The notes under the pieces are model-generated. The model made no database searches. It was given only the letters and a program-made list of their open reading frames with translations, and was not told the origin of the DNA. From IMG/VR virus record IMGVR_UViG_3300028829_003722, positions 1 to 39,632 of that record: a stretch of DNA of 39,632 bases; one strand, given 5' to 3'. Shown here in pieces: positions 1,446-15,312 of this stretch. Origin of the DNA: a virus. The position numbers were made by a program, and so were the translations under genes. Within the stretch, counting starts at the first letter, position 1. Each line of letters begins with the position of its first letter.

Positions 1446-3404
1446 TCAAAACATAAATGCGTTGTAACCCGGCCCGGGCATGAATCTTGAGTCAAAAGCT
1501 TGAAGTTGCAACTGAGTCCCACCTCCCATAGTAGTGGTACTTGTGCTTGCATCCGTGTTAGTGGTATTTCCACTATTCTCAGTAATATTGTTGATGACTG
1601 TAGCAGGAGTTTTTCCGTCTGATGAAGGTGTAACACCCGTAGATGCATCAGTATTTTTCTTATTTTTGTCAGCTAATTTCTTCTCCGCTTTTTCTGCTCT
1701 TTTTCTCTCTCTTTCTAGTGCTCTTGCCTCCGCACGGGCTTTTCTACTACCTTCCATTGGGTTTGCTCTTGTACCACCCTTACCATACATATTTTCCTTT
1801 TGTGCCTTTGTCATCAACTTATCATCACCAAAGTTGAAAACTTTTCCGAAGGCATCCATGAAACCCTGTTTTGGGCCTTTCTTACTGAAGAGGTTTGCCA
1901 ATGCACCTACACCACCCGCAATCAAAGCGAGAGGTAACATAAGAAGTTTCTTTACATACCTTGTCATACTTGCCAAAATTCCCATTATGCCTGGGCCAAT
2001 TCCATCTTTAAATCCTGCAAAGAGGTTTGAAAACACATCTGTAACGAACGTTGCCATTCCTGCAAAGAAGTCTTGAATGATATGAACAAAACTGAAACTA
2101 TCTAACATGTCAGCAATTCCACCAAGTCCTACTTTTCTCAACAACCAAGATATAACATTCTTCGCGAAATCTGCAAGGATACCTACAGTACCAACTAACA
2201 AACCACCGAGTGCGCCTGTAAGACCACCTATAATTTTCTCAAACATACTACCACCACTGAACGCCTTGAATCCATCTAAAGCACCTTTGATAGTTTCAAA
2301 TATATTCAATGCAATTCTTATTGGTGGGAAGAAGGATAATAATTTTCCACCGAACCCTCTCATAAATGTGAAGAGCTTTCCAAGAAGACCTCCAACTTTA
2401 CCAGCTGATTTAGAACCCGACGCAACAGTTTTCGCCATGCCAGCGAACCTTGTCCCTATAGCTCTTAGTGAGTCAAAGGCAAGTTGAAAAGGTTTAATCA
2501 TAATCCCTACAGCACCTTTTATTCCATTTATAACTTTTGGAACTTGAGCAACAGCTGTTGAAATTCCCTTAGTTTTTTGTGCAACTAGTGAACCCAGTGC
2601 CCCAACTATCAGAAAAAAATCTATTATACCATCTATTACTTTTGCAACTTTAGGTAGAACAGATATGACGGCGACTACGCCTTTCACTGGTAACTTGCCT
2701 AACCATTTAAAAAAATCAAATATACCCTTCAGTTTGCCACCCACTATTTTTAGATTTTGTAGAGTAACACCTGATGGGAAACTCTTGATAGCCTTTACAA
2801 AATTCCCCATATAAACACTAAACCCTGCAACGGCAGCTGCTGCTTTGGGCCCACTCGCAATTTTCTGGATTATCTTTACAACTGAAACCAAGGGTTTACT
2901 AAGTCTACCGTATAAGTCTTTGTAGAACTTGAACATGTTCCCAATGAACTTGAGACCTTCTTGTATTACTACGAAACCTCTTGTACCAAAAAGAATTCTA
3001 CCAACCCTTGTACCAAATTTACCAAGACCCTTTTTACTGAAAAGATTTTTGAGATTGACTCTAAAATTTTTCATAGCATTAATTAATCTACTACCAATCT
3101 CACCAAGTTTGGCAAAAAACCCTCCGAATAACATGGGGAGTCCAAAGAGGAAACCACCCTTATCTTTATCCTTTTTACCCTTCTTATCTTTTTGAGCGGT
3201 CTTTAGGGCAAGTGCTGCTTTCTTTTTGGCTTCGTCTTCTGCCTCTTGACGTTTCAAGGCATCCAATCTCATCTGTTCAAAGAAATCAGTAAACATTGCT
3301 AGTTGTTTCTGTTGTAAAGAAACACCCTGTTTACCTGTACTCTCAATCCGCAGTTCTACCGCCTTGAGGTCATTTAATTCTTCTGTTACTGTTCCAAGTG
3401 CCAT
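1446..3404 (-). CDS. Tail tape-measure protein (gp29-like)
   Basis: 652 residues. Proposed to set tail length and sit inside the tube, as T4 gp29 (590 residues) does. Seen: an N-terminal polar and coiled region with Lys/Ala-rich KKKAALALKTAQKDKKGKKDK near 60-85; a long body of alternating Gly/Ala-rich hydrophobic stretches (DFFLIVGALGSLV, GGLLVGTVGILADFAKNVI, LMLPLALIAGGVGALANLF) and basic amphipathic segments; a charged Lys/Glu/Ala helix; and an Asn/Thr/Ser-rich C-terminus. At about 0.15 nm per residue this would fit a tail near 100 nm, similar to T4. It follows gp26 and its frameshift extension by 9 nt, with AGGG before ATG. Chaperone pair then tape measure is the standard order in long-tailed phages. 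No specific family signature was recognised, so the call rests on composition and context. Confidence 0.7.
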   Translation of the reverse strand: MALGTVTEELNDLKAVELRIESTGKQGVSLQQKQLAMFTDFFEQMRLDALKRQEAEDEAKKKAALALKTAQKDKKGKKDKDKGGFLFGLPMLFGGFFAKLGEIGSRLINAMKNFRVNLKNLFSKKGLGKFGTRVGRILFGTRGFVVIQEGLKFIGNMFKFYKDLYGRLSKPLVSVVKIIQKIASGPKAAAAVAGFSVYMGNFVKAIKSFPSGVTLQNLKIVGGKLKGIFDFFKWLGKLPVKGVVAVISVLPKVAKVIDGIIDFFLIVGALGSLVAQKTKGISTAVAQVPKVINGIKGAVGIMIKPFQLAFDSLRAIGTRFAGMAKTVASGSKSAGKVGGLLGKLFTFMRGFGGKLLSFFPPIRIALNIFETIKGALDGFKAFSGGSMFEKIIGGLTGALGGLLVGTVGILADFAKNVISWLLRKVGLGGIADMLDSFSFVHIIQDFFAGMATFVTDVFSNLFAGFKDGIGPGIMGILASMTRYVKKLLMLPLALIAGGVGALANLFSKKGPKQGFMDAFGKVFNFGDDKLMTKAQKENMYGKGGTRANPMEGSRKARAEARALERERKRAEKAEKKLADKNKKNTDASTGVTPSSDGKTPATVINNITENSGNTTNTDASTSTTTMGGGTQLQLQAFDSRFMPGPGYNAFMF

Positions 3405-3413
3405 TGAGATACC

Positions 3414-3662
3414 CTAAAAATTATTGTTGTGCTTCTTGTTCTCTTCTGCCTCTTTTTCGAGATGGTCTGCGAGTAATGTCAAATAAACTTCTCTTTCCCA
3501 AGGTATCATATTTTCTAAATCAGATAAAGAATAATTATGATGTTGCATTAGTGCGAAGTTGGTTTTGAAATGACTAACCAAATTATCATGCGCGAGGCAT
3601 ACTAAAAAAAATCTTGAAGACCCTCCAGTTTTACTTTGTTTTCTGTTCCACAGGCGACGCAT
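3414..3662 (-). CDS. -1 frame extension of gp26, tail assembly chaperone C-terminal part
   Basis: An 82-codon frame overlapping the last 61 nt of gp26 in the -1 frame. The part beyond the overlap (63 codons) has the character of gpT/gpE' chaperone domains: HHNYSLSDLENMIPWE, REVYLTLLADHLEKE, then an acidic-basic tail. It joins gp26 exactly at a run of eight T, so it is probably expressed mainly as a 298-residue gp26 fusion. An alternative start at 3662 has AGGAGG (3673-3678) ten bases upstream, which could give a free 82-residue protein; however its first 19 residues are just the shifted reading of the conserved gp26 C-terminus. The tape-measure gene begins 9 nt after it. Confidence 0.7.
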   Translation of the reverse strand: MRRLWNRKQSKTGGSSRFFLVCLAHDNLVSHFKTNFALMQHHNYSLSDLENMIPWEREVYLTLLADHLEKEAEENKKHNNNF

Positions 3663-4309
3663 TTATATTCTGCCTCCTGTCTTAGTACAGGTTGATTATT
3701 TAGAAATGCGCCTACTGATGAAAATTGATTACTTGTCATCGAGTCAATAAACGATTCCATTTCTTCCTTTGTCCATTCTGTTATTCTTTCATCTGGTGTG
3801 TTTACAGATAAAATACATTCTTCAACCATCGTCATACCGAAACTTGATTCTGACATATCTTCTTTATAGTTATCGACGAATGATGTATAAGACGGATATT
3901 TCAATTCTAGTTCTATTGTATCCGTAAGTTTTATTATATTACTTATTTCTTCATCTTGTTGAACTTCAAGTGATGATAGGTCAACAACATATTCTGACCT
4001 CGCTTCGCAATCATCTGCGCCACATGTTAGTTCCAAGGTAGACGATTCACCAACTGACTTCGCACGTAATCGTGTAAAGATATATTCAATATCAAAAGTT
4101 GTAAGTGTGTCTCCGTTTACATGTTCAGTTACACAGGCGGTTACAATGTCTACCATTGCCCTCATCTGTATTTTTCTGTCATTAGACTCAAATGCCTGAA
4201 GAAGAACTTTCTCTTCTTTTACAAGATATGGTCTGTAAGTAATCGCCTGTTTGGTTGAAGGGATTATCAAATCATACTTGATGGTTTCATTTAAAATAGG
4301 TAGTGCCAT
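3602..4309 (-). CDS. 26: Baseplate hub assembly protein gp26 (T4_baseplate family)
   Basis: 235 residues; T4 gp26 is 208. The N-terminal segment IIPSTKQAITYRPYLVKEEK with following LLQAFES, and the middle DIEYIFTRLRAKSVGES, are family hallmarks. Two cysteine pairs are visible: C96 and C101 (TCGADDC) and C217 and C220 (CVAC), which could build a zinc ribbon. The protein ends LEGLQDFF at the slippery T8. By position (after a tube-fold protein and before the tape measure) it is in the place of a tail assembly chaperone. GGAGA precedes the ATG, and an exact late box lies at 4343-4350 on this strand, in the gap after the preceding gene. Confidence 0.85.
   Translation of the reverse strand: MALPILNETIKYDLIIPSTKQAITYRPYLVKEEKVLLQAFESNDRKIQMRAMVDIVTACVTEHVNGDTLTTFDIEYIFTRLRAKSVGESSTLELTCGADDCEARSEYVVDLSSLEVQQDEEISNIIKLTDTIELELKYPSYTSFVDNYKEDMSESSFGMTMVEECILSVNTPDERITEWTKEEMESFIDSMTSNQFSSVGAFLNNQPVLRQEAEYKCVACGTENKVKLEGLQDFF
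3605..3611 (-). other. Putative -1 programmed frameshift site (T TTT TTT)
   Basis: On the minus strand the end of gp26 reads GAT TTT TTT TAG. The heptamer T-TTT-TTT (3611 down to 3605) lets both Phe tRNAs slip back one base with perfect re-pairing, after which TTA GTA TGC continues into the downstream frame just before the gp26 stop. The position matches the slippery sites of lambda G/GT-type tail chaperones. I did not identify a stimulatory RNA structure. Confidence 0.65.
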
Positions 4310-4356: not shown

Positions 4357-5070
4357 TTAAAGAAGTCCACGAGCGAACTGTAGTACTCCACCCGCCAAAC
4401 CAACTCCGAGTTGACTTGCAGTGATTTTCTTTGATGAACCTTCCCAATTGGTATAAGCTAAAGAAACCGTAACTTCTAAAAGGTTTGCGTCTGCTTTCAT
4501 TTGGATTGCAGACAGTGTTGTTGGGAATGCATCTATCAACTTACACTCATAGACAATATCATCAGGTGTAATGGCGTCAAGGTCAAACTCTCCCTGTGCA
4601 AAATCAAGAGGGCCCAGTTTTGGTAACCTACCTCTTATACTTGAAGGTATCTTACCCGCATCAAAAAGTTTCTTTCTTGCCACTGGGAACGATACGCCTT
4701 TTCTTATCTGTGATATGGTGACATCCGCTACATAGTCTTTATGATATCCCATAGTCTTTGTCGTTTGGTTGAATATTTTATTTTGCCATGCCTCGAAGTA
4801 AGTCCTTGCACTGTAATCGTTCAGGAGAAAGAAGGTCATAGTAACATCCTCTAATGCATACCCATACCCAACTTTTCTCTGTCTCACCCCTGTCTGGTCT
4901 TCTACTGTTTTTATTTGTCTGCCAGGCAAGTTTACACCCGTACACATAATTTCCATTGTCTTTGCGTAACCTGTTCCTAAGTCGGGTAGTTTGACCTTGA
5001 ACATACTACCCATAGCCATTCCGCCACCGTGACCGATTTCTGAAAGGAACTTATCTATATTCGCTACCAT
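4357..5070 (-). CDS. 54: Tube-fold protein, probable gp54 baseplate-tail tube initiator
   Basis: 237 residues with the T4 gp19-like tube fold: VNLPGRQIKTVEDQTGVRQRK near residue 47, DVTMTFFLLNDYSARTYFEAW, NQTTKTMGYHKDYVADVTI, then CKLIDAFPTTLSAIQMKADAN and VTVSLAYTNW. This is longer than T4 gp19 (163) and shorter than gp54 (320). gp48, the other tube-like cap protein, is at 6262, so gp54 is the best fit, seeding tube polymerisation on the hub; a second tail-tube subunit is the alternative. AGGAG precedes the ATG. It lies between the probable gp2 gene and gp26, the position a tube gene holds before the chaperones in many tail modules. Confidence 0.65.
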   Translation of the reverse strand: MVANIDKFLSEIGHGGGMAMGSMFKVKLPDLGTGYAKTMEIMCTGVNLPGRQIKTVEDQTGVRQRKVGYGYALEDVTMTFFLLNDYSARTYFEAWQNKIFNQTTKTMGYHKDYVADVTISQIRKGVSFPVARKKLFDAGKIPSSIRGRLPKLGPLDFAQGEFDLDAITPDDIVYECKLIDAFPTTLSAIQMKADANLLEVTVSLAYTNWEGSSKKITASQLGVGLAGGVLQFARGLL

Positions 5071-8108: not shown

Positions 8109-9668
8109 ATGGCACTATTTCCAGAAATATCAAACATTAGAAGAGCAAGAGAAGATGCAAATGCGCCCGCTGGTGGCGCCCCCGCAAATTCGCCTGCCGC
8201 TGTAACTCCGACAATAACAGAACCAATAATAGAAGAAGAAGCACCTACACCTCAATTTACATTTTCACCTCAGTTTGAGTTGAATCAGGCAGTAATATCT
8301 TCTGGTATGTATGATAAAGAGATTGATGTTACAACCAATGTTGCAGAACTTGTTATTTTTGAATCATTAGATTCACCCTTCTTGACAGGAAGGATAGTGA
8401 TATCAGATGATGAGGGTCTTCTTGATGCAATGAAATTTCAGGGTACAGAAAGATTGATAGTCAGTCTAGGAGGGGCAGATATTCAGAAGACTCCTATACT
8501 AACAAAGAAAAAATTTATAATGACCAGTATTGAATCTAAAGTATCAACTTCAAACCAAAACTCGTCTGCATTTGTCTTTACTCTTATAGACGAACATGGT
8601 TTTCTGGGACAACTGAAAAAGATTAGTAAATCCTATACAGGAAGTCTTGAGAGGATTATTGTCAGTATTGCACAGAACGAACTCAATAGACAAGTTGACA
8701 TTGGATATACAGGCGCAACCGCTGGTAATGACGAACTATCGGCACAACAGGATATAACATGTATCATTCCCAATCTTACTCCTATAGAAGCAATGAAGTG
8801 GTTATGTAGTCGTATCACAACACTAAACGGTTCTCCCTATTTTATTTACGCAACTCTAAATGTTCCAAATTATTTTGCGGTTTCTGATGAAACACTAAAT
8901 GAAGAAGACCGAACTTTTGGAAATGTCATAAGACTTGGTAATCTTGATGTGATGTTACAACAAGAACCACTAAACAAAGTCCCGTTTAGATATACTCCAA
9001 ACACCACGGGTGTCAATGTCGAAGCTGCCCCTGTGAAACAAATGTTTACAATAAAAGGGTTTCAGATAAGAAGTGGTTATTCAGATACTCTTACACAGGC
9101 GTTGATGGGTTCTGTTGTGTCAACATATTCAAACACCAATCTAGGGACAGGTGAAATATTCACAACAAAACACAATCTCACTGACCAAATAAATACTCTT
9201 ACCGAAGACGGTATAATACAAAAGGAAGGATTTACGCAAGATGTTATTGACCCTACTTTTGTAATCAACGATTTACCTCTAGAGGAATACTCTGCGAAAC
9301 AGTTTCATACAATAACCTCTTCGGGTACATATGGAACACAGAAAAGTTATCACGATGAATTTGATGAGACTAAGTTCAAACATAAAATACAATCACGTTC
9401 ATTATTTACAACACTTCAGAAGAATAGGATATCAATAGTCGTAGAGGGTGGTGCGTTGATATACTCAACGGCGGGTGTAGGAGACATCATAGATATAGAT
9501 ATTTTGGGTGACAATATGACGGCGGGTGAGAATGACAGAGACCCTCGGTCAAATAGATTTTCAGGAAATCATCTTATATATAATATACAACATACTTTTA
9601 TTGAAGGTACTCATAATTGCACCATGAATTTAGTGAAACTAAATGTAGGAAGTAAAGGAAACAATTAG
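8109..9668 (+). CDS. 27: Baseplate hub protein, gp27-like
   Basis: 519 residues; T4 gp27 is 391. gp27 forms the trimeric torus at the hub centre that holds the gp5 spike. The N-terminus is a Pro/Ala-rich linker (about 20-55). Then comes VAELVIFESLDSPFLTGRIV, a hub fold with KKFIMTSIESKVS, TPIEAMKWLCSRITTLNGSP (the central domain), and ALIYSTAGVGDIIDIDIL with HLIYNIQHTFIEGTHNCTMN at the C-terminus. Its place directly before the gp5 OB gene is the usual one. The larger size and linker are typical of marine relatives; the call rests on fold pattern and context more than on close identity. Confidence 0.72.
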   Translation: MALFPEISNIRRAREDANAPAGGAPANSPAAVTPTITEPIIEEEAPTPQFTFSPQFELNQAVISSGMYDKEIDVTTNVAELVIFESLDSPFLTGRIVISDDEGLLDAMKFQGTERLIVSLGGADIQKTPILTKKKFIMTSIESKVSTSNQNSSAFVFTLIDEHGFLGQLKKISKSYTGSLERIIVSIAQNELNRQVDIGYTGATAGNDELSAQQDITCIIPNLTPIEAMKWLCSRITTLNGSPYFIYATLNVPNYFAVSDETLNEEDRTFGNVIRLGNLDVMLQQEPLNKVPFRYTPNTTGVNVEAAPVKQMFTIKGFQIRSGYSDTLTQALMGSVVSTYSNTNLGTGEIFTTKHNLTDQINTLTEDGIIQKEGFTQDVIDPTFVINDLPLEEYSAKQFHTITSSGTYGTQKSYHDEFDETKFKHKIQSRSLFTTLQKNRISIVVEGGALIYSTAGVGDIIDIDILGDNMTAGENDRDPRSNRFSGNHLIYNIQHTFIEGTHNCTMNLVKLNVGSKGNN

Positions 9669-10531
9669 TGAAAATTTTGAATCCAATACCTTCAGAATAT
9701 TATGGTGATACCACACGATGGTTTATTGCGACTGTTGTAAGTTCAACTCCACCTACAGGATATGAAGGACGAGTAAAGATACGCATACACGGATTACACA
9801 GTGCTTCTACAGAAGATATTCCAGAGTACGCATTACCTTGGGCACAATGTGTTGTTCCCACAACCGAGGGTGGTGTGTCGGGTATAGGTAAGATGCCAAA
9901 GATATTACCAAGTGCGTTAGTGTTTGGTATGTTCATGGATGGTGCGAGTTCACAAGTCCCCATAGTACTTGGGTCTCTTCCTACAATAGAAAGACCTTCT
10001 CCAGTACAATTACAATCCGTGAAGGATACTGAAGTGCGTAAGAAAGCAGTACTTGCAAGTAAACTAAAAGAAATAAGAGACACAGACCCCATCAACAATC
10101 AACAGACAGGGGTAAATTTTATTGAGACAAAAAAACAAAGAAAGGAATATACCTTTCAGTATTTTCTAAACGCAGGATATGATTACAACCAATCCAGAGG
10201 CATTACAGAAAACCTAAGTAAACTACAATTCATTTCTGGTTTCAGGGGTTCTGATAAACTATCTGGTACGTTTGGTCTTGCAGAATGGAAGGCTCAAAGA
10301 TTTATAAATCTAAAATCCTTTTCAAGTTTGTATAAAAATTTCTCAACACAATTAGACTTTATACAATGGGAACTCAATGGGACATTCAGGTCTGCCAATA
10401 TTAGACTACTAAATACAGACAAGTTCGGTGGAGGTGACGGTTCAATGTATATTTTTGCAAAACATTATTTGAAGTTTGATACAGAAAGGTTAGATACTCT
10501 TATGAGAGAACCTACTGGAGGTTACTCATGA
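9668..10531 (+). CDS. 5: gp5 N-terminal part: OB domain plus degenerate tail-lysozyme domain
   Basis: 287 residues, GTG start overlapping the hub-gene stop (TAGTG), AAAGGA upstream. Residues 1-108 are the gp5 OB-fold that links hub to spike: YYGDTTRWFIATVV, GRVKIRIHGLHSASTEDIPE, LPWAQCVVPTTEGGVSGIG, and SQVPIVLGSLP. Residues about 160-280 resemble the phage tail lysozyme family (FQYFLNAGYD, SGTFGLAEWKAQRF, QLDFIQWELNGTF). The expected N-L-x-x-E-S-G-F catalytic motif reads KLQFISGF, so the general-acid Glu appears replaced by Ile189. It lacks both a long beta-helix and an evident active lysozyme, which in T4 are on the same polypeptide. Those roles appear to have moved to the next two genes. 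Confidence 0.82.
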   Translation: MKILNPIPSEYYGDTTRWFIATVVSSTPPTGYEGRVKIRIHGLHSASTEDIPEYALPWAQCVVPTTEGGVSGIGKMPKILPSALVFGMFMDGASSQVPIVLGSLPTIERPSPVQLQSVKDTEVRKKAVLASKLKEIRDTDPINNQQTGVNFIETKKQRKEYTFQYFLNAGYDYNQSRGITENLSKLQFISGFRGSDKLSGTFGLAEWKAQRFINLKSFSSLYKNFSTQLDFIQWELNGTFRSANIRLLNTDKFGGGDGSMYIFAKHYLKFDTERLDTLMREPTGGYS

Positions 10532-13500
10532 GAAGTTTACTAAAAGGATTATTCAGGGATGCGTTCCCGCCCCATAAACTAAAACAGATGGGCATTACTA
10601 ATGAACAGTTAAATAAGAAGAACAAGAGTGGTGGTTTCATTAGTGGCATTTCGAATCACCATATCAAAGAGATACAAAAAAATCTAGAACAGGAATCAAT
10701 AAAAGAAAATACACCGATAAAATATTCTCTGTCTACTCCAAGAAACCTTCACCTTGAAGGTAGAACTTTTCCGATTGATGTAACAGTAGGTCAATATGAC
10801 GAAACGGTTATATCAGGGGCAGAAGCAAAAGTATTACAACTAAAAGAACAATATAAAATAGCTAATACAAGTTTGATAGGAAAGATAGATATACCGTTAG
10901 ATGCAAACGGTGATATTGTTGAAGGTATAACTGTTCTCTCTAAAACTGAAACAAGTACAGGTATACTTGAAATACAAGACGCCAATAAAGTATTCTCGGA
11001 TGTTGATACGGATGGAACAACAGAAATAGCGATGGCTAAAGATACCGCCAAACACTTGAGGGTAACCACTGCGGGTGTTCCTGCCGCAGTATTAGCTGGT
11101 CAAGAAAGAGCTGCAGAAATAATAGATGCAGAAAATGAGTACAGTGCAAAGTTATTAGATTCACTACCCGATATTCTAGGAGCGCCTGGAGGAGGATTTC
11201 TAGGTACGGTGTTCAAGATAATTGGCGCTGTAGGTATTGCAGGAAAACTTATGCAGGGTTCTACTGCATTTACAAACTTCGCAAAAAGTATAGACAAATT
11301 TAAAGATAAGGTTCTAACTGCAACAGGATTAGATGAAGTATACAAATGGGGTAAAACAAAATATCAAGAAGCGGGTCAGTGGTTTGACAAACAATTTGGT
11401 GAGATTGGAGATTTTTTTCAAGAGGAATTTATTGACCCTCTTGAAAAACGCGCAAAAGCAATTGCAAAAAGTTTAGGTAAAGAACTTGATGATTTTGTAA
11501 AGGCGGGTGGTGAAGCTCTAGGAGAATTGGGTGACTCGATTGGTGAGTTGTTTGATGATTTGTTTGAAGACCCACAAATAAAAAAACTAAGAATCACAAG
11601 GAATGGTGAATATGAATTTGCTCTTGAACAACTGGATGACAACGGTAACCCATTTGTGCCACCCAGATTCGAAATATTTGATAATATTGAAGATATTCAA
11701 AAATATGTTGACTTAGAGACTCTAAAAAAAGGATTGTCAGTTGATGATTTAAATACTTTTAATGACCTTGACGTTCAAGCTTTAGGAGGTGGATTTACTG
11801 GTGGCCCAGGCGATTTTGCCCTAGTATTTGATAACCTGCCTGAAGACTATGACTTCACTGACGCTATGAATATGGAAAATTGGTTCCAAGACATGTCACA
11901 ACAACTTACGTTATTTAACCAAGATGGTGTTGATTTGTTTAACGAATTTGCCAATGAAAGGTCTTTTACTCTTCTTCAACAAGCTCAAGCTTTGTCTCTT
12001 ACGAATTTAGATAATAGCATTGGTTTCAATTTCAGAACCTTTGATGTTTTCAATTCCCAAACCACATCCTTATCAGGTCTCATAGGTAGAGAGTTTGAAA
12101 GAGCTTTACCATCTCTGAAGTTCTTTATTTCAGACACATTCAGAATGAACAATGAAGAAATTTTTGGAATATATGAGAGGTTTCGTAGGGGAGACACTAG
12201 TGCGATAACCACACTCCTTGGAGTAAATGAGAACATAACTGGTTATATAAAAGATGGTGAATTAGATTGGAAAGCGATATCCGCATCAGTGGGTGCAAGT
12301 TTACCCACAGGTACTCCAGAAGAAGTTGCGTCACTTGTCCTTGCCGCTATAGATGCGTCTGATGCATCACCAGAGGCAAAAGAAGCTGCAAAGAAGGCGG
12401 TTACAGAATTTATAGACTTGTCAGATAAACTAAGACCCGTAAACTTGGCGGTTCTACTTGCAGACCCAGATACCGTTAGTCCGTTCGACCAGACGTTTGA
12501 GTTGGCAAAATGGGTATCATTTAGTTACGTCTCTTCAGTAGAAGAACTTGAAGCAGAGTTTGCACAAAAAATTCATGAGAGAGATGATGATAAAGATATA
12601 GATAGTGTTGTTATTCATGCAACGGATACATTTAGTAATAAAAATATTGGCGCAGAAGAAATAGATGCAATACAGAAAAAATTAGACCCTACTGGATATG
12701 CACAGGAGAACCGAAAAGTCAAAATAGGATATCACTATATTATCAGACGAGATGGTAGATTGCAAAGAGGAAGAGATATAAGTAAACCGAGTGAGACCTC
12801 TCTGGATAATAGTGGTAGAGATGATACTTGTCTTAGTATTGCAATGGTTGGTGGTATCAATAGTCCTGCAACAGAACAAGAATTTCAAAGGTCAAGTGCG
12901 TCCTTTACACGAGAACAGTATAATACATTAGAACATTTTCTTAGGTCATTCTATAATCATGTGCCTGGAGGAGATGTCTATGGTCATAATGATTTGAACA
13001 CTGATGAGGAAGACCCTTATTTTGATGTGCAAGAATATATACTTTCTTTGTTCGGAAAAATAAACAAAGACTTTTTTACGGTTCCCGAAGCAGAACCAGC
13101 TCCTATACTTGACCCCTCGAGAATAAGAGAAGACGATACTATAGACCCAGAGGGTCAAGTTCAAGGTAGTTTCACACCGCATTATGCAGTACAGGATAGT
13201 ACAAGAACAAAGGTCAACCCTGACGAGTTGAAGGACGGTATTCCTGAGAAACTAAATAAAATGTGTAATGCCTTGGGTTTCCGTCTCAGAGTCAATAGTG
13301 GTAAAAGATATTTTGGTCAAGTTAAAAACTCACCAAAGGGTAGTATACATAATTCAGGAAGAGCGGTTGATATTTCACAATATAAAATTGTTGGTACTGA
13401 GATGATACTTATGACCGAACAGGAAAAGGTGAGACTTATTCAAGCAGGTATTGACCAAGGGTTTTTTGGTATAGGAATTTATGAGAATGGAAGTCACATC

Positions 13501-13635
13501 CATTTTGATACTGTGGGTCAGGCGGGTAAGAAAAAATCATGGGGCCCAAAACATACAAATTCATCTCTTCAGGCCGCTAGGTTTAGATACGCAGTGGATG
13601 TATTGGTAAATAGTGGTTGGCCAATGAGTTTTTGA
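10528..13635 (+). CDS. Virion peptidoglycan hydrolase: amidase_2 plus M15 peptidase
   Basis: 1035 residues, ATGA overlap with the gp5 gene. The N-terminal two thirds are unassigned, with an amphipathic segment near 215-245 (APGGGFLGTVFKIIGAVGIA) and long acidic helical stretches. Residues about 690-845 are an N-acetylmuramoyl-L-alanine amidase domain: SVVIHATDTF (zinc His about 697), GYHYIIRRDGRLQRGR, CLSIAMVGG, and YGHNDL (His about 820) with EEDPYFD supplying the third ligand. Residues about 905-1020 are an M15 (VanX/VanY-like) peptidase: SIHNSGRAVDIS (H941, D948) and SHIHFD (His-x-His about 990-992). Together they would cut both the stem-to-glycan bond and the peptide during cell-wall penetration. 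The gene lies between gp5 head and spike parts, implying a location in the hub. Confidence 0.82.
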   Translation: MRSLLKGLFRDAFPPHKLKQMGITNEQLNKKNKSGGFISGISNHHIKEIQKNLEQESIKENTPIKYSLSTPRNLHLEGRTFPIDVTVGQYDETVISGAEAKVLQLKEQYKIANTSLIGKIDIPLDANGDIVEGITVLSKTETSTGILEIQDANKVFSDVDTDGTTEIAMAKDTAKHLRVTTAGVPAAVLAGQERAAEIIDAENEYSAKLLDSLPDILGAPGGGFLGTVFKIIGAVGIAGKLMQGSTAFTNFAKSIDKFKDKVLTATGLDEVYKWGKTKYQEAGQWFDKQFGEIGDFFQEEFIDPLEKRAKAIAKSLGKELDDFVKAGGEALGELGDSIGELFDDLFEDPQIKKLRITRNGEYEFALEQLDDNGNPFVPPRFEIFDNIEDIQKYVDLETLKKGLSVDDLNTFNDLDVQALGGGFTGGPGDFALVFDNLPEDYDFTDAMNMENWFQDMSQQLTLFNQDGVDLFNEFANERSFTLLQQAQALSLTNLDNSIGFNFRTFDVFNSQTTSLSGLIGREFERALPSLKFFISDTFRMNNEEIFGIYERFRRGDTSAITTLLGVNENITGYIKDGELDWKAISASVGASLPTGTPEEVASLVLAAIDASDASPEAKEAAKKAVTEFIDLSDKLRPVNLAVLLADPDTVSPFDQTFELAKWVSFSYVSSVEELEAEFAQKIHERDDDKDIDSVVIHATDTFSNKNIGAEEIDAIQKKLDPTGYAQENRKVKIGYHYIIRRDGRLQRGRDISKPSETSLDNSGRDDTCLSIAMVGGINSPATEQEFQRSSASFTREQYNTLEHFLRSFYNHVPGGDVYGHNDLNTDEEDPYFDVQEYILSLFGKINKDFFTVPEAEPAPILDPSRIREDDTIDPEGQVQGSFTPHYAVQDSTRTKVNPDELKDGIPEKLNKMCNALGFRLRVNSGKRYFGQVKNSPKGSIHNSGRAVDISQYKIVGTEMILMTEQEKVRLIQAGIDQGFFGIGIYENGSHIHFDTVGQAGKKKSWGPKHTNSSLQAARFRYAVDVLVNSGWPMSF

Positions 13636-13650
13636 TAATAGGAAAAAAAG

Positions 13651-15312
13651 ATGACGACTGAAAAAGATAATTTTGAAAATAGAGTTGCAAGTGAAAAACT
13701 TGGTCTAGGACAGGAACTTACTGTGGGTGTTCCTGCAGACGGAATGCAAAACGCTTCGGGTGATTATCCGAAGAGAGAGTATAACTTTGGGTCTTCTATA
13801 AACAAAGCAGCACTTGGTCTCAAGATAAACAAACTCTACACGGGTGGTGGTGACTATCATGTCCCTCTTGATATACCAGAACAAATGCCTTCTCAGTATC
13901 CATTCAACCAAGTCGATGAAACACCCAGTGGTCACTCTATTGAAATGGATGACACGCCAGGCGGTGAACGTATCCTCATTCGTCATCGTAAAGGTTCGGG
14001 GGTAGAGTTACGTGCTGATGGTACGGTTGTTGTCTCTGCATTGAATAATAAGGTTGAGGTGACAGGGGGAGACCAGACTCTAATCGTAGAGGGAGACGGT
14101 ACTCTCGTATATAACGGTACTCTCAATCTCAGAGTAAAGGGTGACATGAATATCGATGTCGGTGGTAGTTATAACGTAAATACGGGTGGTAATACAAACA
14201 TAAAAACTAAACGTAATCATTACCATCAAGTATCAGGTGATGCAAGTTATGATTATCATGGAGAAAATACTCAAACGGTAGTTGCAGACAAAACTACTTT
14301 AGTTCTTGGAAACAAGTACGACAAAACAAAAAGAGAAAATTATATCAGTGCAGGCGGTTTATTGGAACTTGCGTCAGGTGGAGCAGTTGACATAAGCGCT
14401 CAAACAGATTTATCTCAATCTGCACTCAACGTTGTTGTCAATGCAGATGGTATACTAAAAATGGTTGGTGCAGGAGAAGGGAGCATGGTTGGTGGCGCAC
14501 ATTGTGACTTCACGGGACGCACGTTCTCTGGTGGTGCAGAAACCGCCACAACTGTTTCTGAAAGAGATGATAGTGCGACAGATGATGGGGGTATAAATCC
14601 ATCAGGGTTTCAAACTGCCACTTTCCACGGAAGTTTCCACGGTACTGCAGATAAAGCGATTCATGCATCGAGGGCAAATACCGCTATAACATCAACATTC
14701 TCACTATATGTAGCTACAGGATTAGGTGCAACGCCTCAAGGCGTTGCGGGATGGGCAGCTGCTTTAGCTACAGGTCTCTCCGTTGTTTCCTCTGTTTCTG
14801 ATTTACTTGCAGGGTTTGGAATGGAAGAAGCTCCTGGCGGTTATGCACCTATTGACCCTAAAGATATTGTAAATACCATAAAAGGTAAAGGTGACCAAAC
14901 ACTTATAACAGAAAAAGGAATTGCAATAAGAAAAGTTGCTATAGACCCAGGCAACTACTTAGTAACACAACTAAAAGGCCCTACACATTATAGTATGGGT
15001 GGTTTCAATGTGTTTGACCGTGAACCTACACTAGAAGAAATTCGTGTTGCCATGAGAAACCAAATCGTGCGACAAAGGAAAAAGGGAGAACCGAGTACGA
15101 TAGCTACACTTCTTATCGCAGAGGATAAACTAAATGAATTCTATTTGAATAAAACTCCGCCAGGCACGATGACAGGTAGAACAAGTAAAAAAGAAGATGA
15201 AGGTTTTGTAAAACTACTTAGAGGAAACACAAACCCCACAATACAGGAAACTCGTTATGGTAAAGAACCTATCGGTAACTCTATTGAAAACAAAGGGAAA
15301 AGATTTAGATGA
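13651..15312 (+). CDS. gp5 C-terminal-like beta-helical spike protein
   Basis: 553 residues. Residues about 85-300 are a VgrG/gp5C-type beta-helix: ETPSGHSIEMDDTPGGERIL then IRHRKGSGVELRADGTVVV, followed by short repeats such as NLRVKGDMNIDVGGSYNVNT. This is the cell-puncturing needle in T4, where it is the C-terminal third of gp5. A His-containing stretch (TFHGSFHGTADKAIHASRA) near 327-346 could bind metal, as spike tips often do, though similar GTADKA segments occur in other marine phage fibres. Then a hydrophobic Ala/Gly stretch and a basic C-terminal domain (about 440-553) of unknown role. A perfect GC-rich hairpin lies inside the gene at 14728-14747. Confidence 0.78.
   Translation: MTTEKDNFENRVASEKLGLGQELTVGVPADGMQNASGDYPKREYNFGSSINKAALGLKINKLYTGGGDYHVPLDIPEQMPSQYPFNQVDETPSGHSIEMDDTPGGERILIRHRKGSGVELRADGTVVVSALNNKVEVTGGDQTLIVEGDGTLVYNGTLNLRVKGDMNIDVGGSYNVNTGGNTNIKTKRNHYHQVSGDASYDYHGENTQTVVADKTTLVLGNKYDKTKRENYISAGGLLELASGGAVDISAQTDLSQSALNVVVNADGILKMVGAGEGSMVGGAHCDFTGRTFSGGAETATTVSERDDSATDDGGINPSGFQTATFHGSFHGTADKAIHASRANTAITSTFSLYVATGLGATPQGVAGWAAALATGLSVVSSVSDLLAGFGMEEAPGGYAPIDPKDIVNTIKGKGDQTLITEKGIAIRKVAIDPGNYLVTQLKGPTHYSMGGFNVFDREPTLEEIRVAMRNQIVRQRKKGEPSTIATLLIAEDKLNEFYLNKTPPGTMTGRTSKKEDEGFVKLLRGNTNPTIQETRYGKEPIGNSIENKGKRFR
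14728..14747 (+). repeat. Intragenic perfect inverted repeat
   Basis: GCAACGCC (14728-14735), loop TCAA, GGCGTTGC (14740-14747): eight perfect base pairs in an AT-rich genome, within the spike gene. No T tract follows, so it is not an ordinary terminator. Confidence 0.6.

Follow-up and report, generated by a model that had tools for sequence, protein, structure and literature searches.

The gp26 gene of a T4-like phage very probably yields two tail-assembly chaperones by programmed −1 ribosomal frameshifting, read from the sequence as a short product, TAC-N (gp26), and a long product, TAC-NC (gp26-51). The gene lies in a stretch of 39,632 nt, termed the window here, that spans positions 1–39,632 of the IMG/VR virus record IMGVR_UViG_3300028829_003722, and the feature at this locus is real, conserved and almost certainly functional. 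Its parts and neighbours, listed from 5′ to 3′ along the coding strand, are as follows.

4357–5070, − strand: tail-tube-fold protein (gp19/gp54-like), 5′ of gp26; match to phrog_45 tail tube, E 1e-34
3602–4309, − strand: gp26 / TAC-N, short tail-assembly chaperone of 235 aa in the 0 frame, stop TAG at 3604–3602
3621–3626, − strand: SD-like element GGAGGG, 9 nt 5′ of the heptamer
3605–3611, − strand: slippery heptamer T_TTT_TTT, with the 0-frame stop TAG directly 3′
3414–3605, − strand: −1-frame extension, the gp51 C-terminal domain, 63 codons plus stop TAG at 3416–3414
3559–3581, − strand: weak downstream hairpin, 6-bp stem UUGGUU/AACCAA, 24–46 nt past the heptamer, of uncertain role
1446–3404, − strand: 652-aa ORF in the tape-measure position, assigned by position and synteny with the HTVC008M and phiM12 annotation

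The gp26 protein matched the Pfam family PF12322 (T4_baseplate) with an E of 2e-50, its 171.9 bits lying above the gathering score of 24.5, and phrog_150 with an E of 5e-52. Its gene ends in GAT TTT TTT TAG, and the −1 frame stays open between 3662 and its stop codon at 3416–3414, so that a slip on T_TTT_TTT (3611–3605) would join 235 and 63 residues into a product of 298, the added part including MIPWEREVYLTLL. The initial annotation had these coordinates right, and its proposal of a −1 frameshift, with one short and one long tail chaperone as products, is supported by the family comparison and by the match of the extension to phrog_634, 'baseplate hub assembly catalyst' (gp51), at an E of 7e-27. 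The gene order that it described (tube-fold protein, chaperone, extension, tape measure) was likewise seen: head closure, DNA end protector, tube-fold protein, gp26, −1 extension and 652-aa ORF follow one another in the window, which fits the TAC order of long-tailed phages (tube, TAC-N, TAC-C, tape measure), the tape measure being placed by synteny only. Family profile searches with the 652-aa ORF returned no family match; the ORF is likely to be the client of the gp26 chaperone. Elsewhere in the window, a gp5-like hub/lysozyme (9668–15312, + strand) appears split in two ORFs, one at 9668–10531 (+) matching the N-terminal part of phrog_430 (positions 15–127) and one at 13651–15312 (+) matching a later part (positions 331–505), with a 1035-aa ORF bearing amidase and endolysin matches between them (10528–13635, +).

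Both predicted products have counterparts in T4, encoded there by two distinct genes on opposite strands: gene 26 (208 aa) and gene 51 (249 aa). Residues 1–201 of T4 gp51 form a gp26-like T4_baseplate domain (Pfam, E 4e-52), which is followed by the extension in the same frame. The phrog_150 profile covers residues 3–248 of T4 gp51 and for T4 gp26 stops at profile position 235, the place at which the window gp26 also ends; because the two share this endpoint, the window gp26 made without a shift corresponds to T4 gp26. The predicted 298-aa fusion aligned end to end with gp51 of T4, RB49, AS-gz and PspYZU05, and since this alignment spans the whole length and the extension is homologous, the frameshift product would be the counterpart of T4 gp51. 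T4 gp26 and gp51 are thus the same two forms, a short gp26-like protein and a long one with the same C-terminal domain, encoded in T4 by two separate genes and in the window phage by one gene with a −1 frameshift.

Comparison across the family indicated that the −1 frame entered at the slip site is conserved, open and under coding constraint. Between the window and its near relatives the extension differs only by synonymous third-position changes, 2–3 per pair, and in the wider set the residues just past the slip are kept (L in 73, H in 78 and L in 85 of 89 loci). The sample comprised 80 diverse IMG/VR loci, four near-identical loci and regions of annotated phages, of which 108 loci, the window included, had a scorable gp26 end; removal of sequences with at least 80% identity left a non-redundant set of 89 loci with a median pairwise identity of 38%. 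An extension in the −1 frame was detected in 92 of 93 first-pass loci; the contig fetched for the other locus runs out some 30 nt past the gp26 end.

A run of six Ts (hexa-T) marked the gp26 end in 102 of the 108 scorable loci, equivalent to 102 of the 103 non-T4-type loci, a count in which exceptions matter because loci were scored by the presence of hexa-T, and which includes the single non-T4-type exception. It is absent from six loci: Vibrio phage D533 and five T4-type entries, among which T4 appears twice. All frameshift-type loci carry T_TTT_TTN; on the T_TTT_TTT of the window, both Phe tRNAs can re-pair perfectly in the −1 frame. Given the residues and the codon usage of each gene, xxT TTT would be expected at the site with a mean probability of 0.46 and was present in 89 of 89 loci; as controls within the same genes, it occurred at 59 of 136 other [DSN]F dipeptides and at 20 of 52 codons that open another FF pair. 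For hexa-T, the nominal log10 P of −32.5 overstates independence, as the loci are related.

The frameshift type was found in Kyanoviridae, Pootjesviridae, Emdodecavirus, Menderavirus, Ionavirus, Busanvirus and Caulobacter phage Cr30, and also in the Straboviridae nt-1, phiAS5, S13 and Aeh1. Its occurrence in phages of Rhizobium, Sinorhizobium, Caulobacter, Stenotrophomonas, Delftia, Acidovorax, Cronobacter and Aeromonas goes beyond the 'marine T4-like' feature that had been suggested. Three individual loci are of separate interest. In Vibrio phage D533, gp26 ends CTT TTC AAG TAA TGG, where a −1-frame ATG overlaps the stop (about 2110–2390), and its extension may be made by stop-start reinitiation. 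The T4-type gp26 of Pseudomonas phage PspYZU05 (complement of 302–856) keeps TTT TTT at the homologous place, in GAA TTT TTT AAA, perhaps left over from a frameshift site. In Aeromonas phage Aeh1 (1665–1850), GAT TTT TTC is accompanied by an unannotated −1 extension past gp26.

A putative stimulator lies upstream of the heptamer, with dnaX-like spacing. In the window, GGAGGG pairs with the anti-SD at a ΔG of −9.8, and across the family the mean anti-SD pairing reaches −6.3 kcal/mol in 9-nt windows starting 15–16 nt upstream, compared with a baseline of about −0.5. The LEGL protein motif by itself accounts for some of this pairing: synonymous resampling with the protein kept gave a mean best ΔG of −4.8 versus the observed −6.3 (z −10.8, 0 of 300 resamplings). 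Because the observed pairing beats synonymous resampling, the SD-like element is selected at the nucleotide level. Consistent with such constraint, Glu at the SD-like site is encoded by GAG rather than GAA in 30 of 43 cases, compared with 370 of 1361 elsewhere (p 1.4e-8). Pairing varies among the non-marine members (−2.5 to −9.8), and the four T4-type in-frame gp51 genes sampled have no hexa-T and little anti-SD pairing. An internal SD is a known frameshift stimulator in dnaX (PMC5600365).

The RNA downstream of the slip gave a divided result. Folding past 3605, which the initial annotation had recommended examining, showed an excess at the family level; in the window itself, the weak hairpin at 3559–3581 included, it was not significant (z about 0). 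Relative to dinucleotide shuffles, the family mean z was −1.2 to −1.5 and that of a control region about −0.1; relative to synonymous recoding z was −13, a value to which composition may contribute, as codon usage was taken from gp26. RNAalifold on the codon alignment yielded no consensus structure across the family. Recurrent hairpins at nt 21–30/35–44 and 54–59/63–68 past the heptamer were considered as the stimulator and rejected, all six pairs being present in at most 16% of loci.

The main local rival to frameshifting treats the downstream frame as an independent small gp51 gene that starts by itself, for instance at ATG 3662 or at an internal ATG. ATG 3662 (− strand) lies within gp26 in the −1 frame, follows AGGAGG by about 10 nt (3662–3680), would give an 82-aa protein and is present in four near-identical relatives. 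Many GenBank records annotate the frame in this way, and isolate records carry short 'baseplate hub assembly catalyst' genes, but the annotated starts vary between phages and no universal start column exists in the 89 loci. Some phages do have overlapping stop-starts (TAATG or TGATG), yet 78 of the 89 loci have no −1-frame start codon upstream of the slip, and at 19 a −1-frame stop lies at most 6 nt from the heptamer. The commonest early internal Met column (column 22) holds Met in 62 of 89 loci and has conserved residues upstream of it. A separate gene would, moreover, give the hexa-T no reason for conservation, T4 gp51 is a fusion, and the SD-like element, about 20 nt from the overlapping starts, would be too far away for ordinary initiation. 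We therefore regard a separate gene as improbable: among the relatives, whose slippery run and downstream frame the initial annotation had proposed comparing, the run is kept and a separate start is not the rule.

Two further readings leave out the ribosomal slip and appear less probable again. Transcriptional slippage on T8 could add or drop a base, so that normal translation of the altered mRNA would give the fusion; the window has eight consecutive Ts, and stretches of about 9 A or T make bacterial RNA polymerase slip (PMC5009743). The run consists, however, of six Ts only, followed by C, A or G, in 45 of 93 loci, which is too short for polymerase slippage, and what is conserved is a heptamer of the ribosomal type together with an SD-like element, which acts on ribosomes, so this route seems very improbable. 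It is harder still to credit that the stop is real and the extension a decaying, unexpressed relic of an ancestral fusion, because the extension is kept over very divergent phages, changes only at synonymous third positions among near relatives and is modelled by AlphaFold as a fairly confident helical domain (pLDDT 80.6).

The AlphaFold model of gp26 reached a pLDDT of 93.9. Among the solved matches listed by Foldseek, the HK97 tail assembly chaperone 2ob9 had the highest probability (0.84, but with an E of 0.55 and only 58 aligned columns), a likeness between a model and a structure that is suggestive only; in a viral structure library the matches of the gp26 model were gp26-family proteins, and a sequence search of solved structures gave no homologue.

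The observed architecture, its conservation and the homology of the extension to the C terminus of T4 gp51 point to the following course of events, in which we infer that slippage occurs, how often it does so and how the two products share the work. Most ribosomes would stop at the TAG and release the 235-aa gp26 (TAC-N). A minority would pause as GGAGGG pairs with 16S rRNA about 10 nt upstream, perhaps with the help of downstream folding, and shift −1 on T_TTT_TTT, where both Phe tRNAs can re-pair perfectly; these ribosomes would read 63 more codons to make the 298-aa gp26-51 (TAC-NC). By analogy with lambda G/GT, gp26 may coat the tape measure and the extension may recruit tail-tube subunits.

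The slippery sequence of lambda is G_GGA_AAG, unlike the T_TTT_TTN of the window family, in which an SD-like upstream element was also found. Otherwise lambda G/GT resembles the window locus in lying between the tube and tape-measure genes, in giving a short and a long product and in shifting −1 near the end of the first frame (PMC5009743). The window family resembles the E. coli dnaX cassette, which combines an upstream internal SD, a slippery heptamer and downstream structure (PMC5600365), in carrying an SD-like element ahead of a slippery heptamer; dnaX differs in the heptamer sequence (A_AAA_AAG) and in a frameshift product that is shorter, and in the window the downstream structure is weak. 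In the TAC of Vandenendeviridae/Andersonviridae (phage Adele), according to the available part of PMC12846349, the −1 shift takes place on GTTTTT, a motif at the chaperone gene's 3′ end; these phage families differ from that of the window, and that part of the source reports no SD-like stimulator.

Frameshifting in T4-like TACs is not new in kind and probably partly described already, contrary to the suggestion that it might be undescribed. Credit for identifying the TACs of T4-like phages goes, in the available parts of PMC10885494 and PMC12846349, to Vladimirov, Gautam and Davidson 2022 (Virology 566:9); the former, citing that study, states that some T4-like phages use no frameshift and carry a short gene plus a long, fused one, and the latter credits it with poly-T slippery signals in T4-like TAC-N genes. 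As represented in these citing papers, Vladimirov et al. 2022 may already cover the non-T4 group. What is added here is the breadth of the feature, the SD-like element and the explanation of the 'truncated' and 'missing' gp51; neither the element nor the explanation was found stated in the literature searched, in which Vladimirov et al. 2022 is represented by citing papers.

In Sullivan et al. 2010 (PMC3037559), the gp51 of cyanophages and of marine vibriophages was reported to be short of its first ~200 residues, and Aeh1 to have no gp51. The part missing from the 'truncated' proteins is gp26, joined to them by the predicted frameshift, and the unannotated −1 extension after gp26 explains the 'missing' gp51 of Aeh1. 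None of the isolate records examined has a joined CDS for gp26-51, and the full-length long form appears absent from these annotations. A 2016 review described G/GT frameshifting as widely conserved 'except T4' (PMC5009743), an exception that looks confined to the T4 subgroup.

A broader proposal, to which we give about equal weight for and against, is that in T4-like phages other than those of the T4 subgroup the tail chaperone is made by way of a dnaX-like recoding cassette, with an anti-SD-pairing stimulator about 10 nt upstream of hexa-T and lineage-specific downstream folding, and that the T4 subgroup replaced this cassette by gene duplication and in-frame fusion, both signals being lost in gp51. 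The gp26/gp51 domain tree separates T4 gp26, T4 gp51 and the frameshifters; as it is unrootable and has long branches, the direction of change rests on parsimony. At the bench, the putative frameshift site would allow a clear test of whether an SD stimulates frameshifting in phage tail assembly.
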